Assembly: GCA_937934305.1 (NCBI GenBank)
Contig: CALHAG010000022.1
Span: 1-37,110 of the forward strand
Length of the DNA stretch: 37,110 bases
Direction: 5' to 3'
From: Candidatus Caldarchaeum subterraneum
Lineage (GTDB): Archaea; Thermoproteota; Nitrososphaeria_A; Caldarchaeales; Caldarchaeaceae
The translations under genes and the position numbers were made by a program. Of this stretch, positions 914-31,759 are shown piece by piece (the first letter of the stretch is position 1; each line of letters starts with the position of its first letter). Under the pieces are notes generated by a model. The model was not told the origin of the DNA, ran no database searches, and worked only from the letters and a program-made list of their open reading frames with translations.

Positions 914-1061
914 ACTTGGTGTAGCCACATTTCCCGCATGTATATCTGTTGCCGTGGTCTGCCATGAAGTATCCAACACCACATCGGGGGCATGAGACCA
1001 ACGTCTTCTCAAGCCTTCCATCCTTCAAAACATATCTTTTCCACAGCCCTTGTTCGGTCAT
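903..1061 (-). CDS. rps27ae: Small ribosomal subunit protein S27ae (eS31)
   Basis: This 52-residue protein is read from ATG at 1061 to TAG at 903. Its sequence carries a four-cysteine zinc ribbon, CPRCGVGYFMADH followed by CGKCGY, with the GLWKRYVLKDG lead typical of archaeal S27ae, where the protein is free rather than fused to ubiquitin. It is a small-subunit protein near the decoding region. The ATG overlaps the TGA of S24e by 4 nt, showing translational coupling in the S6e-S24e-S27ae operon. The 3' end runs 11 bases into the convergent dephospho-CoA kinase gene. Confidence 0.92.
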   Translation of the reverse strand: MTEQGLWKRYVLKDGRLEKTLVSCPRCGVGYFMADHGNRYTCGKCGYTKFKQ

Positions 1062-1357
1062 TTCTTCGGCCTCTCCGCGAGCTTGTTTCTGACAAGTATG
1101 TAAAGTGGCTCAAAAACCTTAACGTCTTCCACTCTGTTGTAGACATTTGCGTAAACATCTACGAGTCTTGAGCCTGTGCGGTAGACGATTTTCCTAACAA
1201 CCACTCTAGCGGGGTCTACGTTGAGATGAGCCGCTATCAATTGCTTGGCCTCGTCTCGGGTAATGGGCTTGGTGAATGAAATTTTCGCAATCACCTCACG
1301 ACGTCCCACCAGCTTGTTTTCCACAAGCTTGGAGTCAACCAGCGACATCTTGCTCAC
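1058..1357 (-). CDS. rps24e: Small ribosomal subunit protein S24e
   Basis: The 99-residue protein matches archaeal S24e: KLVENKLVGRREVIAKISF near the N-terminus, then TRDEAKQLIAAHLNVDP and the VVVRKIVYRTGSRLVDVYANVY core. It is a small-subunit protein. Two in-frame ATG codons are possible, 1357 and 1348; I keep the longer. The start overlaps the end of S6e by about 23 nt and its stop overlaps the S27ae start by 4 nt, so the three genes form one tight operon on the minus strand. Confidence 0.93.
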   Translation of the reverse strand: MSKMSLVDSKLVENKLVGRREVIAKISFTKPITRDEAKQLIAAHLNVDPARVVVRKIVYRTGSRLVDVYANVYNRVEDVKVFEPLYILVRNKLAERPKK

Positions 1358-1760
1358 CTTTCTTGATGAGGACGGCGTTTATCTGAGCTATTGCCTCGCT
1401 GATGGTGTCGCCTCTGACTGTGACGCGTTTCCTCAAACCTTTCACCAGCCTTCTCGCCCGCTTCTTCTTCCTCTTCGATGGGGGCTTACGCCGTGGATGG
1501 AACCCGGGGCCGCCGGAGAGCAAAACCTTAACTTTCCTAGGGCCCGAAACATCGGGGCGCATAGGGAAACCGTCTTTGTCAGAACCACCAGTTATTTTTA
1601 TCAAGTATCCCTTATAGCCGAAAACTCCGCCGTCAACAGTTTCTCCAATCCTCTTACCTATCAAAAGCGTAAACTGCTGAGGGGTGAGCTGTATAGTTGA
1701 TGCTTTTTTCTGGACGGGGTCTGACAAAACCATCCGAGGGCCAGCGGCTTGCTGCGACAT
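1335..1760 (-). CDS. rps6e: Small ribosomal subunit protein S6e
   Basis: The 141-residue product is the archaeal S6e: VLSDPVQKKA at the N-terminus, GKRIGETVDGGVFGYKGY, the GGSDKDGFPMRPDVSGPRK block, and a basic stretch with RRKPPSKRKKKRAR before VRGDTISEAIAQIN. S6e lies at the foot of the small subunit. ATG 1760 lies about 30 nt downstream of a TATA element within the end of infB, which fits a leaderless mRNA. It is first in the S6e-S24e-S27ae operon. Confidence 0.95.
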   Translation of the reverse strand: MSQQAAGPRMVLSDPVQKKASTIQLTPQQFTLLIGKRIGETVDGGVFGYKGYLIKITGGSDKDGFPMRPDVSGPRKVKVLLSGGPGFHPRRKPPSKRKKKRARRLVKGLRKRVTVRGDTISEAIAQINAVLIKKGEQDVAG

Positions 1761-1783
1761 CTAAACACCTTCGCCTATGCTCA

Positions 1784-1794
1784 GCAATTTAAAC
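1784..1794 (-). promoter_or_regulatory. TATA promoter of the S6e-S24e-S27ae operon
   Basis: Read on the minus strand, GTTTAAATTGC is centred about 30 nt before the S6e ATG, the spacing expected for a TATA box driving a leaderless transcript. It sits just past the infB stop, partly in the 39-base gap. Inferred from sequence and spacing only. Confidence 0.55.
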
Positions 1795-1799
1795 ATGAG

Positions 1800-4046
1800 C
1801 TACCTCGCCCACAAAGGGTTTTTGACACGCATTATCTCGACATATTCTTCTAAGGCTTTGAGCGCATGTGGCTCCAGCATGGCTGCGTAGGTTGTGAGAA
1901 GCTGTCGGGCGTCTCTCTCTGGGACGGCCACGTAAAGCTCCTCGTCGCCGTGAATTGTGCGGCCGACTACTGCGTCTCTTATGGAGACAGCCACCTTCAT
2001 CCCCTCTTTGGCGAGGCTTATCGCCTGCCCTCTGTCCTGTATCTGGGAAAGCAGGCCCACGGTTTTCCCAGCTTTGTTGACCAACTGGACACCGGGACGA
2101 ACCTCGCCCGCAACAACCTCCACACCCACAATCGCCGGCTCACTTCGCCTGAAAATAAAGTCCTTGAGTATCTTTATCTTTCCCGGCTTTACCAGCGACT
2201 CGAACTCAGCCGCCTGTCTCGCCCTGATGGTGTCGGCGACCCACTTCTCATAATCCTCGAGTAGACGGAAGAGTACGTCGTTTTTGAAGATGCGCACACC
2301 CTTTGACTGGGCTTCGTGCTCGAGCTCGGGGTCGACCCTCACTCCATAGGCGAGGATGACGCCGAGTAGTTCATCCTTCTGGCGAACAACGTGAGCCTCC
2401 ACCACGTCACGTTTAGAGACATCTCCTATGTCGGCCAACCGAATTAATACCCCTTTTTCACGGAGATAGTTAACCGCGGCCTCGAGTGTTCCAAGCGCAT
2501 CAGCCTTTACAACCACGCCAATCTTGTCAGTTGAGAGAATAAACTCCTGAGCCTCCTCAGCAACCCGTCTAAGGTCCTCCTCCTCGTTTTTCACGGCCAA
2601 GATGGGTGAGCCGGCCACCGCTTCCTCAAGCATTTCTGCAACCATTTTAACACCCGCGGCCGCTGAGATTTGGCTGATGCTTTTCAGCCTGTCCCGTGGG
2701 TCGCGTATCTCGTCGAGAGGCTTGGGTAGCAGCAGCGCCTTGACCCTCGACGTTGATGGGCCTCTGCGTGTGAGGAAAGCAACCTTATCGCCGACCCTTA
2801 AAGTTCCTGTGTGGATTAGGATGTTAGCTGTGGCTCCGAAGCCCTCTTCCTCGACTATTTCGAGAATGACGCCTTCACATCGGTCGTCTTTTTTCATGAG
2901 ACGCTGTTTCATGAATTGCTGAGCGAGTCCGAGGAGAAGCAGGAGAAGGTCGGGTATGCCTTCGCCTGTCTTGGCGCTCACGGGAACAATGGCAACCGTG
3001 TCTGTGAATGACCTTATCCGTGTGTAGAGGTCGGACCTGAAACCTAGGAAGCTTAGCTCCCCCATCAAGTTGTATATCCTGTTGTCAAGGTCTTCGGCGA
3101 CTGTTTTATGCTGGTTGTTGTAGGTTTTTATGAATGGGGCGTTGGGCGTCGGCTTCCATCCGGTTATCATGTCGATTTTGTTGGCGGCTACCACGAAGGG
3201 CGTTTTTCTGGAACGAAGCAGTTGAATGCTTTCCCTCGTCTGCTCCTGAACACCCTTCATAACATCGACGACCAGTATCGCCATGTCGGCGACAGAGCCT
3301 CCGCGTTTTCTGAGGTTTGAGAAAGCTGCGTGGCCTGGTGTATCGATGAAGAGGATGCCTGGAATCTCCAGCTTGACTTTGAGCTCGCCCAGCAGCTGTC
3401 GACATGTTTCCTCTATGGCTTTTATCGGGAATATCGTGGCTCCGATGTGCTGTGTTATGCCGCCCGCTTCTCTAGCGGCCACGAGGGTTCCCCGCATCTT
3501 GTCCAGTAGAGAGGTGTTGTGAAGTATGATTTCTTGGGCTTCGTAGAAATGTGTCGGCGGGACCGTGAAGTCATACACGTAAGGGTAGCTTGGTTTAGCT
3601 TGTTCAAGATTTTCCACCGCTACGGATGCGACTTGGTTATTTCTCAAGCTCAATACCCTGTCTCCCGGCTTAAGACTATCTGCTCTGGTGAAAATGTAGA
3701 GTGAGTTGGTGAGAGCTTTTGCGTAGGGGTGTTCGGGTGTTGTCTCCACAGTTTCCCCGTTCGAGAAATGTATGCGGGTAACGGTCTTGGGTGCTTGACG
3801 CCTCCAGAGCAGCACCGCCTCCGCCTCGTTATTCCCGGTCAAGGTCGCGAGGCGAGGTTTCTTAGCCGGCTCCACAGCCACCCCATCAGAAACAGGATAG
3901 ACTTCACCTCTCCAGCTATATTTTCTGAAGATCTTCTCCGCAGAGACGTAGCCCTCACCGGCTTCGTGTATAAGTGTCCATGGGGCCACGCATTTTCCAT
4001 GGTCTACATGGCCCAGAACAACAACTATCGGCTCTCGGTAGCTCAT
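1800..4046 (-). CDS. infB: Translation initiation factor aIF5B (IF2-like GTPase) with in-frame mini-intein
   Basis: aIF5B is the GTPase that promotes ribosomal subunit joining. The 748-residue precursor is 589 residues without its intein (residues 19-177), the normal aIF5B size. Extein landmarks: GHVDHGK (12-18) joined after splicing to TSLLDKMRGT, giving a complete G1 P-loop; GGITQHIGAT (switch I region); DTPGHAAFSNLR (G3); ANKID (G4); SAKTGEGIP (G5); then the beta-barrel and C-terminal IF2-type domains. The intein separates Lys18 from the Mg2+-binding Thr, so unspliced protein should not bind GTP properly. ATG 4046 is about 25 nt from a TATA half of the divergent promoter shared with kae1. 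Confidence 0.96.
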   Translation of the reverse strand: MSYREPIVVVLGHVDHGKCVAPWTLIHEAGEGYVSAEKIFRKYSWRGEVYPVSDGVAVEPAKKPRLATLTGNNEAEAVLLWRRQAPKTVTRIHFSNGETVETTPEHPYAKALTNSLYIFTRADSLKPGDRVLSLRNNQVASVAVENLEQAKPSYPYVYDFTVPPTHFYEAQEIILHNTSLLDKMRGTLVAAREAGGITQHIGATIFPIKAIEETCRQLLGELKVKLEIPGILFIDTPGHAAFSNLRKRGGSVADMAILVVDVMKGVQEQTRESIQLLRSRKTPFVVAANKIDMITGWKPTPNAPFIKTYNNQHKTVAEDLDNRIYNLMGELSFLGFRSDLYTRIRSFTDTVAIVPVSAKTGEGIPDLLLLLLGLAQQFMKQRLMKKDDRCEGVILEIVEEEGFGATANILIHTGTLRVGDKVAFLTRRGPSTSRVKALLLPKPLDEIRDPRDRLKSISQISAAAGVKMVAEMLEEAVAGSPILAVKNEEEDLRRVAEEAQEFILSTDKIGVVVKADALGTLEAAVNYLREKGVLIRLADIGDVSKRDVVEAHVVRQKDELLGVILAYGVRVDPELEHEAQSKGVRIFKNDVLFRLLEDYEKWVADTIRARQAAEFESLVKPGKIKILKDFIFRRSEPAIVGVEVVAGEVRPGVQLVNKAGKTVGLLSQIQDRGQAISLAKEGMKVAVSIRDAVVGRTIHGDEELYVAVPERDARQLLTTYAAMLEPHALKALEEYVEIMRVKNPLWAR
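3516..3992 (-). other. Mini-intein (159 aa) inserted in the aIF5B P-loop
   Basis: The insert begins with Cys (CVAPWTLIHE, block A) right after GHVDHGK and ends IILHN, the block G His-Asn pair, followed by Thr as the +1 nucleophile. Block B is visible as VETTPEHPYA, with the TxxH motif, and block F as YVYDFTVPPTHFYEAQ. No LAGLIDADG endonuclease blocks fit in 159 residues, so it is a splicing-only mini-intein that has lost, or never had, homing capacity. Inteins at this GHVDHGK/T site of aIF2/aIF5B are known in other Archaea. All catalytic splicing residues seen are intact, so it should be active. Confidence 0.95.
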
Positions 4047-28963: not shown

Positions 28964-29506
28964 ATGTTCCTCGACATGCTTTTGCTTTCTTCACTGGCCG
29001 CGGCTATCTCAGCGGCAACCACAGCCATAAGAAAAATCGTCTTCAAAAAAGAGGATTTGGCGAAGATAGCTGAAATCCAGTCATACAACCGTGAGCTAAT
29101 GACCGCGACACGGAAAAAAGACCAGAAAACCATCCAAAAACTTCAGAAGAAACAAGACTACATCAGACAGATAAACGCGGAGGTGACGAAGAAAAACATG
29201 ATAACTATGTTCGCCAGCCTCCTCATTTTCTTCACAATCTACCCCACTTTAGGAGGATTTTTCGGCACGCAGATGCTCGGATACGTTCCAGCGGGTTTAG
29301 ACATACCTTTCGTGACAGATTCTGGTAAACTCTATTTTTACGGATGGTTTATTTTGTCGTTTTTCGGAGTAAGCTCGCCCATAACAAAAATATTTGGGCT
29401 GGGCTTAGCTGGGATGCCTACGGCGGGAGGTGGTGAAGATGAGAAGAAGGCTGAGGACAAGAAGCAAGAGGAGAAAGCAGGTAAGGACACCGAGCGGCGT
29501 AAATAG
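28964..29506 (+). CDS. EMC3/YidC-like membrane insertase (DUF106 family)
   Basis: The 180-residue protein is a DUF106 (EMC3/TMCO1-type) homologue, an archaeal relative of YidC/Oxa1 that helps insert membrane proteins. It has an N-terminal membrane helix (LLLSSLAAAISAATTAI), a coiled-coil cytosolic hairpin (KKDQKTIQKLQKKQDYIRQI) and two further spans (MFASLLIFFTIYPTLGGFFG and FYGWFILSFFGVSSPI), with a charged lysine/glutamate tail. Its position after SecY suggests that it works with the translocon. Its last 68 bases overlap L34e in another frame. Confidence 0.9.
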   Translation: MFLDMLLLSSLAAAISAATTAIRKIVFKKEDLAKIAEIQSYNRELMTATRKKDQKTIQKLQKKQDYIRQINAEVTKKNMITMFASLLIFFTIYPTLGGFFGTQMLGYVPAGLDIPFVTDSGKLYFYGWFILSFFGVSSPITKIFGLGLAGMPTAGGGEDEKKAEDKKQEEKAGKDTERRK

Positions 29507-29699
29507 GCTTCACTTCTTCGAGAAGAGGCCAGGGCCGAGGAAATGCCGTTTCTGCGGAAGCATCCTAAGCGGGGTGTCGATTGACCCACGTGCAGCCCAT
29601 AGCATGAAGACGGTTGAGCGAAGATATGGCGGAGAAGTATGTCATAGGTGTCTCGAGAAGTCTATCCTCGTCTCCGCTGCCGCCGAGTGGGGGCTTTGA
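29439..29699 (+). CDS. rpl34e: Large ribosomal subunit protein L34e
   Basis: The 86-residue protein is archaeal L34e: RLRTRSKRRKQVRTPSGVN, HFFEKRPGPRKCRFCGSIL and EVCHRCLEKSI, giving a CxxC...CxxC zinc ribbon. ATG 29439 is chosen because GGAGGTGG lies just before; the GTG at 29430 would be inside that run. It starts inside the insertase gene and its last 38 bases overlap cmk on the other strand. L34e is patchily distributed in Archaea, which helps placement in TACK lineages. Confidence 0.92.
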   Translation: MRRRLRTRSKRRKQVRTPSGVNRLHFFEKRPGPRKCRFCGSILSGVSIDPRAAHSMKTVERRYGGEVCHRCLEKSILVSAAAEWGL

Positions 29700-30264
29700 A
29701 AAAGTTTTTCGCCGTCTGGACAACAATCTCAGCAACCTGATTCGGACTAAGCCCCGAGGTATCAACTATTAGATGGAAAGGAGAAAGGTCGCGGCCAATC
29801 CTTATGCCGTAAAGCCGCTTATAGATTTCTGAGCTTTTCCTATCACGGCTTCTCAACAGACGTGACGCCTGTTTCACAGAAATTTTGCTACGTTTAGCCA
29901 TCCTCTCCGCTCTGCTTTTGAAGTCTGCGGTAAGCCACACCTTAAACGCCCTGCCCTTATACAGCCACGGCATCACCCACGAATCAACCACCACGCCACC
30001 AGCTCTACAAATCTCCAACAACTTCTTGTCAACCTTCTTATCAAAACTAGGGTCACGAGCTCTCAGACCGAGAAACTCTAACCCCTTAGCTGTCTCCCAC
30101 CAGCCGGCGCCGCCTGGTCTATATCCCATATCCACGGCCAGCTCCTTGAGAGCGTCGCCTCCAGAAACATACTTTAGCCTAAGCCGTTTGGCGACAATTT
30201 TTCCGACAGTGGATTTCCCGACGGCTGCGAAGCCGGCGAGGCAGATGACGGGTTTATCGGACAT
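29662..30264 (-). CDS. cmk: Cytidylate kinase (archaeal CMP kinase)
   Basis: The 200-residue P-loop kinase begins ICLAGFAAVGKSTVGKIVA (Walker A GFAAVGKST) and continues with RLRLKYVSGGDALKELA, the NMP-binding region, ARDPSFDKKVDKKLLEI and VVVDSWVMPWLYKG, the lid and the RSRDRKSSEIYKRLYGIRIG segment. It converts CMP/dCMP to the diphosphates. In most Archaea cmk lies between L34e and L14e on the same strand; here it has kept its place but is inverted. Its end overlaps L34e by 38 bases. Confidence 0.88.
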   Translation of the reverse strand: MSDKPVICLAGFAAVGKSTVGKIVAKRLRLKYVSGGDALKELAVDMGYRPGGAGWWETAKGLEFLGLRARDPSFDKKVDKKLLEICRAGGVVVDSWVMPWLYKGRAFKVWLTADFKSRAERMAKRSKISVKQASRLLRSRDRKSSEIYKRLYGIRIGRDLSPFHLIVDTSGLSPNQVAEIVVQTAKNFFKAPTRRQRRRG

Positions 30265-30327: not shown

Positions 30328-30651
30328 ATGGTTGATGAATCGCTTGTCGGACGTGTAGTGGTCAAGTCGAGGGGCAGGGACGCAGGGTTAAAGGGAGTGG
30401 TCGTGTCAGTGTACGGAGACGGCTATGTCCTCGTCACGGGCCCCAAACCCCTCACCGGGCTGAGGAGAAGAAGAGTAAACGCTTCACACATTATACCTAT
30501 GCCCCACAAACTATCGATACCCAGAGACGCATCGGATGAGGAGGTTATGAAAGCCATAAAGGAAGCCGGTTTAGAAAAATATATGGCTGAACCACATGCA
30601 ATCAAACAATCCGCCTTGGAAGCGGAGCTTCGAAGTCCTAGTCAAACGTGA
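30328..30651 (+). CDS. rpl14e: Large ribosomal subunit protein L14e
   Basis: The 107-residue protein is archaeal L14e, with the KOW-type start LVGRVVVKSRGRDAGLKGVV, the VLVTGPKPLTGLRRRRVNAS block and SHIIPMPHKLSIPRDASDEE. It is transcribed from a TATA element 32 nt upstream, and cbf5 begins inside its last 56 bases, so both are read from one mRNA. The L14e-cbf5 linkage is common in Archaea. Confidence 0.92.
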   Translation: MVDESLVGRVVVKSRGRDAGLKGVVVSVYGDGYVLVTGPKPLTGLRRRRVNASHIIPMPHKLSIPRDASDEEVMKAIKEAGLEKYMAEPHAIKQSALEAELRSPSQT

Positions 30652-31620
30652 AGCGGAGACGGACCCGCGATACGGCAAGCCACCCGACCGAAGAAACCTT
30701 GAGGAGCTTCTAAACCTAGGCGTAATAAACCTCGACAAGCAACGGGGGCCTACTAGCCACGAGGTCGCATACATGGCGAAGAAAATCATGAATGTGGAGC
30801 AGGCCGGTCACGGCGGGACCCTAGAACCATACGGGGAAATCCCGCCGTCTCCGGCGTCTTACCGCTTCTCCTCAATGAGGCCACAAAGCTTTCACACGTT
30901 TTCATGCATGGGGGCAAAGAGTATGTCGGGTTGATGGAGCTTCATGGCGACGTCACAGACGAAAAACTGCTGGAAGCCTTCAAGATCTTCACGGGAGACA
31001 TTTATCAAGTGCCTCCGGTGAGGGCGTCTGTAGCGAGAAGACCAAGAATCAGACGAGTCTATTATTTTGACGTGATTGAGAGGGACGGCCGCTACGTCTT
31101 ATTCAGAATAGGGTGCTCAGGCGGAACCTACGTCAGAAAAATCTGTCATGACATTGGTCTTTACCTCGGCGTCGGCGCCCATATGGAGGAGCTTAGAAGA
31201 ACGAGAGCAGGCTCCCTGGAGGAAAAAAACAGTGTAACACTATTACAGGTCTACGAAGCCATTGCGAAATACAGAGAAACAGGGGACGAAAAGGCGGTGC
31301 GTAAAGTAGTGCATCCTGTTGAGAAATGTCTGGATCTTTTGCCAAAGGTATACATTCTTGACACAGCCGTAGACGCCGTATGCCATGGCGCCGACTTGAT
31401 GGTTGCAGGTGTCTCGATGATTGACTCTGATGTTGCAGAGAACAGCGAAGTAGCTCTGATGACTTTGAAGAACGAGCTGGTGGCTCTGGGGAAAGCCACT
31501 ATGAATGCACAGTCAATTCTTGAAGCATCCGAGGGAATGGCGGTCGACGTAACTCGAGTCATCATGCACAAGTCCACTTATCCACCAGTATGGAAAGGAG
31601 GACTACAGCGCGTCCAATAA
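30596..31620 (+). CDS. cbf5: tRNA/rRNA pseudouridine synthase Cbf5 (TruB family), interrupted by a 14-nt intron
   Basis: Cbf5 is the catalytic subunit of H/ACA RNPs and modifies U55 of tRNA. The frame is broken: 30596-30824 reads GKPPDRRNLEELLNLGVINL, GPTSHEVAYMAKKI and GHGGTL, then loses sense; from 30839 another frame resumes with SGVLPLLLNEATKL, ending in a PUA domain. Joining 30824 to 30839 removes 14 nt, gives 336 residues, the usual Cbf5 length, and forms a GAT (Asp77) codon in GGTLDPAVSGVLP, where family members have their catalytic Asp. The flanks fold into a bulge-helix-bulge. Read as an intron-containing functional gene; a disabled gene is the alternative. Confidence 0.9.
30810..30848 (+). 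other. Bulge-helix-bulge motif spanning the cbf5 intron
   Basis: Outer helix: ACGGCGGGA (30810-30818) pairs fully with TCCCGCCGT (30840-30848). Central helix: CCCT (30819-30822) with GGGG (30833-30836), three G-C pairs and one G-U. Bulges: AGA (30823-30825) and AAA (30837-30839). The inner seven bases (30826-30832) form a loop, with no further helix, so it is a compact hBH form. Confidence 0.85.
30825..30838 (+). other. Predicted 14-nt archaeal pre-mRNA intron (bulge-helix-bulge type) in cbf5
   Basis: Removing AACCATACGGGGAA restores the cbf5 frame and creates the Asp codon from G30824 plus A30839-T30840 (phase 1). Cleavage after the second base of each three-base bulge, as the archaeal splicing endonuclease does, gives exactly these ends. 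It is the only 14-nt removal placement compatible with both the reading frame and the fold. Bulge-helix-bulge introns in cbf5 are known in Crenarchaeota. Confidence 0.85.
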
Positions 31621-31653: not shown

Positions 31654-31741
31654 GCCGGGGTCCCTCAGCCAGGTAGAGGGCAGGCCTGGAGAGCCTGTGG
31701 CCCTAACCCGGGCCGCGTGGGTTCAAATCCCACCCCCGGCG
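31654..31741 (+). tRNA. tRNA-Ser (anticodon GGA)
   Basis: A complete type II tRNA folds: acceptor GCCGGGG with CCCCGGC; D-stem CCTC/GAGG; anticodon stem CAGGC/GCCTG with loop CTGGAGA, anticodon GGA at 31688-31690; a long variable arm GGCCC/GGGCC; T-stem GTGGG/CCCAC with loop TTCAAAT; discriminator G. The long variable arm and G73 mark serine. No intron and no encoded CCA are seen. It follows cbf5 after 33 bases. Confidence 0.95.
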
Positions 31742-31759
31742 CATAAGCGAAGTCCGTTT

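Follow-up and report, generated by a model that had tools for sequence, protein, structure and literature searches.

Very probably, the cbf5 gene of Candidatus Caldarchaeum, an aigarchaeon (Aigarchaeota) of the order Caldarchaeales, is interrupted by a genuine intron that belongs to a known kind; the gene encodes the pseudouridine synthase Cbf5. We put at about 96% the probability that the 14-nt insert is a pre-mRNA intron of the bulge-helix-bulge (BHB) type, in a relaxed bulge-helix-loop form. Its predicted position is the known one, splitting the catalytic Asp codon after its first base (PMC2738675). The cbf5 intron has been described from Desulfurococcales and Sulfolobales only, at lengths of 16 to 44 nt and with a gain placed in their common ancestor (PMC2738675), and a paper from 2020 still calls it a crenarchaeal feature (PMC7714728). 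Our literature search returned no report for Aigarchaeota or Bathyarchaeota; an earlier mention is possible, for example in the 2011 C. subterraneum genome paper. As far as the literature that we found goes, its occurrence in Caldarchaeales, in Bathyarchaeota, and in 28 of 39 sampled families is new, as are the minimum length of 13 to 14 nt and a natural control on exon codon choice.

Frame break and fold at the cbf5 site

Within the window, by which we mean the whole 37,110-nt stretch of DNA that was analyzed, cbf5 occupies positions 30596 to 31620 of the plus strand. Read unspliced, the frame stops at 30934 after 112 codons. Removal of 30825 to 30838 leaves 1,011 nt (336 codons and a stop), and the product reads GHGGTL-D-PAVSGVLP across the junction, where the catalytic Asp codon is formed, and formed only there, from G30824, A30839, and T30840. 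The initial annotation had proposed this break and its repair to a 336-residue Cbf5 with LDPAVSGVLP, which we recovered base for base, along with the junction-built GAT codon. The spliced protein exceeds the curated cut-offs for Cbf5, that of the NCBIfam CBF5 equivalog among them, with 415 bits against NF003280 (cut-off, 242) and 400 bits against TIGR00425 (cut-off, 238); alignment of the joined protein with solved archaeal Cbf5 covers residues 12 to 329 and is gap-free across both the junction and the catalytic Asp. Just 3' of cbf5 lies a tRNA-Ser (GGA) gene without an intron (31654 to 31742), and a minus-strand cytidylate-kinase-like gene (29662 to 30264; name assigned by eye) sits between a ribosomal-protein-like gene (29430 to 29699) and the genes on the plus strand that lead up to cbf5. 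The features of the site are as follows.

30596-30824, plus strand: cbf5 exon 1, whose final G opens the catalytic Asp codon (CBF5 equivalog match of the spliced protein)
30810-30818, plus strand: outer helix, 5' arm ACGGCGGGA, exonic (pairing missing in intronless sister genera)
30819-30822, plus strand: 5' strand (CCCT) of the central 4-bp helix, exonic (covarying with the 3' end of the intron)
30823-30825, plus strand: 5' bulge AGA, expected cut after 30824 (fold; cut rule of PMC2738675)
30825-30838, plus strand: predicted 14-nt intron AACCATACGGGGAA (length shared with three other Caldarchaeum genomes, sequence different)
30833-30836, plus strand: 3' strand (GGGG) of the central 4-bp helix, intronic (pairing and covariation in relatives)
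30837-30839, plus strand: 3' bulge AAA, expected cut after 30838 (fold; cut rule of PMC2738675)
30839-31620, plus strand: cbf5 exon 2, beginning with the AT of the Asp codon (gapless alignment to solved Cbf5)
30840-30848, plus strand: outer helix, 3' arm TCCCGCCGT, exonic (pairing missing in intronless sister genera)

The site folds into a 9-bp exonic outer helix (30810 to 30818 with 30840 to 30848) and a central helix of 4 bp, CCCU with GGGG, capped by a 10-nt terminal loop; because there is no inner helix, the AGA bulge runs into this loop. The initial annotation gave this arrangement exactly, from the 9-bp outer helix through the AAA bulge, the 4-bp helix, and the AGA bulge to the missing inner helix, and RNAfold returns it as both the minimum-free-energy and the centroid structure, at -27.4 kcal/mol. 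Compared with dinucleotide shuffles, the 51-nt site has a z score of -3.4, and when flanking exon codons were redrawn synonymously from the gene's own codon usage, with intron and protein kept, 2 of 2,000 recodings folded equally well. From this sequence alone, the intron could lie at 30825 to 30838 or at 30826 to 30839, with identical mRNA; we place it at 30825 to 30838 because the cut falls after the second bulge base and because the introns of some relatives do not begin with A (for example, at loci L022, L040, and L041).

The site shows the cbf5-intron motif of a 3-nt bulge, a 4-bp helix, and a second 3-nt bulge, with predicted cuts after the second bulge bases. The canonical hBHBh' motif has an inner helix that closes the 5' bulge, where this site has a 10-nt open loop. 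As modeled, the Caldarchaeum site is thus a relaxed and not a canonical BHB motif, which leaves its membership among cbf5 introns unaffected since most published cbf5 introns are also unconventional (PMC2738675).

Stable hairpins also span some recoding sites, and the ribosome might bridge the break by programmed frameshifting or by bypassing the hairpin. We consider this very improbable, as insert lengths in orthologues fall into all three mod-3 classes (remainders 0, 1, and 2 in 16, 37, and 36 genes, respectively) so that no fixed shift would work, a shift would not provide the catalytic Asp, and cDNA of crenarchaeal orthologues shows splicing at the same site (PMC2738675). Even less credible is an error of sequencing or assembly, or decay of the gene: the window does come from a draft assembly of 30 contigs, but a 14-nt insert with other inner bases recurs in three further genomes, of which one is a single contig, the gene is the sole cbf5 found in a 97% complete genome, and the 20, 7, and 78 differences from genome G002 at first, second, and third positions of 318 codons, in both exons, argue for protein-level constraint on both exons. 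Frameshifting, bypass, assembly error, and a pseudogene were therefore all rejected, error being already refuted by the congeners.

Covariation and exon codon choice

Covariation was assessed in 89 distinct intron-bearing cbf5 genes. The central helix is paired at 353 of 356 positions, a count never reached when the strands were re-dealt among genes (2,000 shuffles; mean, 338; maximum, 343) and one to be read with the proviso that this shuffle treats genes as independent and ignores their relatedness. CCCU pairs with GGGG or AGGG, CUCU with AGAG or GGAG, and CCUU with AAGG or GAGG; double changes from CCCU/GGGG to CUCU/RGAG and to CCUU/RAGG recur in separate families, and one genus holds the wobble form CUCU/GGGG (L023) alongside CUCU/GGAG (L021). 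Compensatory changes in relatives, named as a check in the initial annotation, are therefore present.

Sister genera with and without the intron provide a natural experiment on exon codon constraint. Among Caldarchaeales, contiguous pairing in the outer helix averages 6.8 bp in genes with the intron (n = 26) versus 0.5 bp in genes without it (n = 12), and for the second Gly of GHGGTL all 26 of the former use GGG and all 12 of the latter GGA. The Leu codon before the cut, compared across a wider set, is CTA in 76 of 89 intron-bearing versus 3 of 58 intronless genes. It had been argued that both arms of the outer helix must code as well as pair, and this is borne out by the intronless sisters, which lack the synonymous codons that form the pairing. 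Judged from these sequences, the exon codon constraint is real and vanishes where the intron is absent; the exon stem appears to be kept by synonymous codon choice only as long as the intron is present.

Predicted splicing and related introns

The direct basis of this analysis is the sequence, fold, frame, conservation, covariation, and exon codon constraint, together with the genes for both EndA subunits and RtcB; from established archaeal splicing, we infer cleavage and ligation of the cbf5 transcript, with EndA and RtcB as their enzymes. The nascent mRNA would fold so that exon 1 pairs with exon 2 (9 bp) and with the 3' end of the intron (4 bp). An (alpha-beta)2 splicing endonuclease would cut each 3-nt bulge between its second and third bases and free 14 nt, and ligation of the exons by RtcB would rebuild both the reading frame and the catalytic Asp codon. 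Since the unclosed 5' bulge makes this no strict canonical BHB, the predicted cleavage depends on an EndA of broad specificity.

The genome encodes two EndA genes, for a catalytic alpha subunit (178 aa), whose best PDB match is 3p1z of A. pernix (6e-53), and for a divergent beta subunit. K36 of the alpha subunit aligns gap-free with A. pernix K44, a lysine of the Crenarchaea-specific loop that has been tied to the cutting of relaxed motifs (PMC6379350). As read from its genes, the same genome thus holds a heteromeric (alpha-beta)2 EndA with the loop lysine, and a broad-specificity enzyme of this form is what would be expected for the relaxed cbf5 motif. In C. subterraneum, tRNA introns are numerous and lie at noncanonical as well as canonical positions (PMC3293823). 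RtcB is also encoded in the genome; the gene for this expected exon ligase (L142, G000:C5) carries an intein inside the DINC metal-binding motif. A change in EndA as the cause of intron loss is unsupported, as two EndA genes and the loop lysine are likewise found in sister genera that lack the intron.

The crenarchaeal cbf5 intron (Watanabe 2002; Yoshinari 2006; Yokobori 2009, PMC2738675) shares with the Caldarchaeum insert the gene, codon, and phase, a mostly relaxed BHB motif, the cut after the second bulge base, and an exon-encoded outer helix. It differs in length, published as 16 to 44 nt versus 14 nt in Caldarchaeum and 13 nt in relatives, and in range, its published gain being in the ancestor of Desulfurococcales and Sulfolobales whereas we find it also in Caldarchaeales, Bathyarchaeota, and others. 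Published position, phase, and cut rule (PMC2738675), with the insertion conserved in congeners, support the initial annotation in its interpretation as a cbf5 BHB intron and in calling it very short, since it is among the shortest of its kind (published minimum, 16 nt). The crenarchaeal type assigned there stands as to kind; the host is an aigarchaeon, outside the crenarchaeal orders from which the type was described.

Archaeal bulge-helix-loop tRNA introns share the motif class and the enzyme predicted here, and tRNA introns are quoted from 11 nt upward (PMC2738675); their exon helix is part of the tRNA fold, whereas that of Caldarchaeum cbf5 lies in coding sequence. The BHB intron of Haloferax HVO_1309 (PMC7714728) is likewise in an mRNA processed by EndA, as predicted here, but it lies in the 5' untranslated region and the Caldarchaeum intron in a catalytic codon.

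Length, distribution, and age

All four Caldarchaeum genomes carry a 14-nt insert at the site (AACCATACGGGGAA, AACCGTATGGGGAA, AAGCACCTGGGGAA, and AACATGGTGGGGAG), with differing inner sequences. Inserts in other Caldarchaeales measure 13 to 23 nt, and the other relatives in one scan had 13 to 35 nt or none at the same site. The cbf5 gene at locus L059 (G044; 1009 to 3375, minus strand) combines a 22-nt intron with an in-frame intein of ~520 aa that bears intein-splicing and LAGLIDADG domains, so that splicing at the RNA level and at the protein level would both be needed to make its Cbf5. Intronless Caldarchaeales, which include Geocrenenecus, Wolframiiraptor, Benthortus, and relatives, form one clade in the Cbf5 tree (99% SH-aLRT support), consistent with one loss explaining every absence of the intron within the order.

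Across the 89 genes, introns are 13 to 40 nt long, with 13 nt in six distinct genes (families f1, f2, f3, f9, and f10) and 14 nt in another six. The fixed parts take up 1 nt of the 5' bulge, 4 nt of the helix, and 2 nt of the 3' bulge, leaving a spacer of 6 to 7 nt; hence, 13 nt may be the structural minimum of a cbf5 intron, and introns of 13 to 14 nt would mark the minimal mRNA substrate for EndA. In the positive-control genomes, which we take to be A. pernix, S. tokodaii, I. aggregans, S. hellenicus, and T. aggregans, the introns as extracted were 38, 31, 39, 36, and 19 nt, respectively, equal to the published sizes.

Sampling one or a few genomes per family from 39 families of the phylum, we found the intron at the exact site in 28 and absent in 11, with three families mixed. 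Named carriers include Bathyarchaeota, Candidatus Culexarchaeum, and some Thermofilaceae metagenome-assembled genomes; the Archaeoglobi cbf5 genes scanned are intronless. Intronless genes (L117, L124, L129, and L135) are scattered among intron-bearing Bathyarchaeota and their neighbors and suggest further losses there. Presence in most of the sampled families suggests that the cbf5 intron is much older than published. We lean, by a modest degree, toward an intron already present in or near the ancestor of the phylum (here, Caldarchaeales, Bathyarchaeota, Culexarchaeum, Desulfurococcales, Sulfolobales, and others), repeatedly lost, and shrinking to a 13-nt structural floor.

Several gains at one site, where the codons of GHGGTLDP would favor a hairpin, are a less probable history. 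Presence is patchy, the Cbf5 tree showing 13 changes of which five or more are forced by well supported branches, and the protein sequence alone yields some G-C pairing at the site. Against repeated gain, site, phase, and motif are the same wherever the intron occurs in those 28 families, a single loss covers all absences within Caldarchaeales, and intronless genes retain no ready-made stem. Deep branches of the Cbf5 protein tree are too weakly resolved for dating the gain.

An intron once thought limited to two crenarchaeal orders is thus present in the majority of the families sampled, uncultured Aigarchaeota and Bathyarchaeota among them, and in these lineages automatic gene calling will probably break up or shorten the essential cbf5 gene. 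If the intron does go back to the ancestor of the phylum, no protein-coding intron known in Archaea would be older or more widespread, and its persistence within a catalytic codon for so long would suggest a function, such as the coupling of Cbf5 output to splicing capacity.
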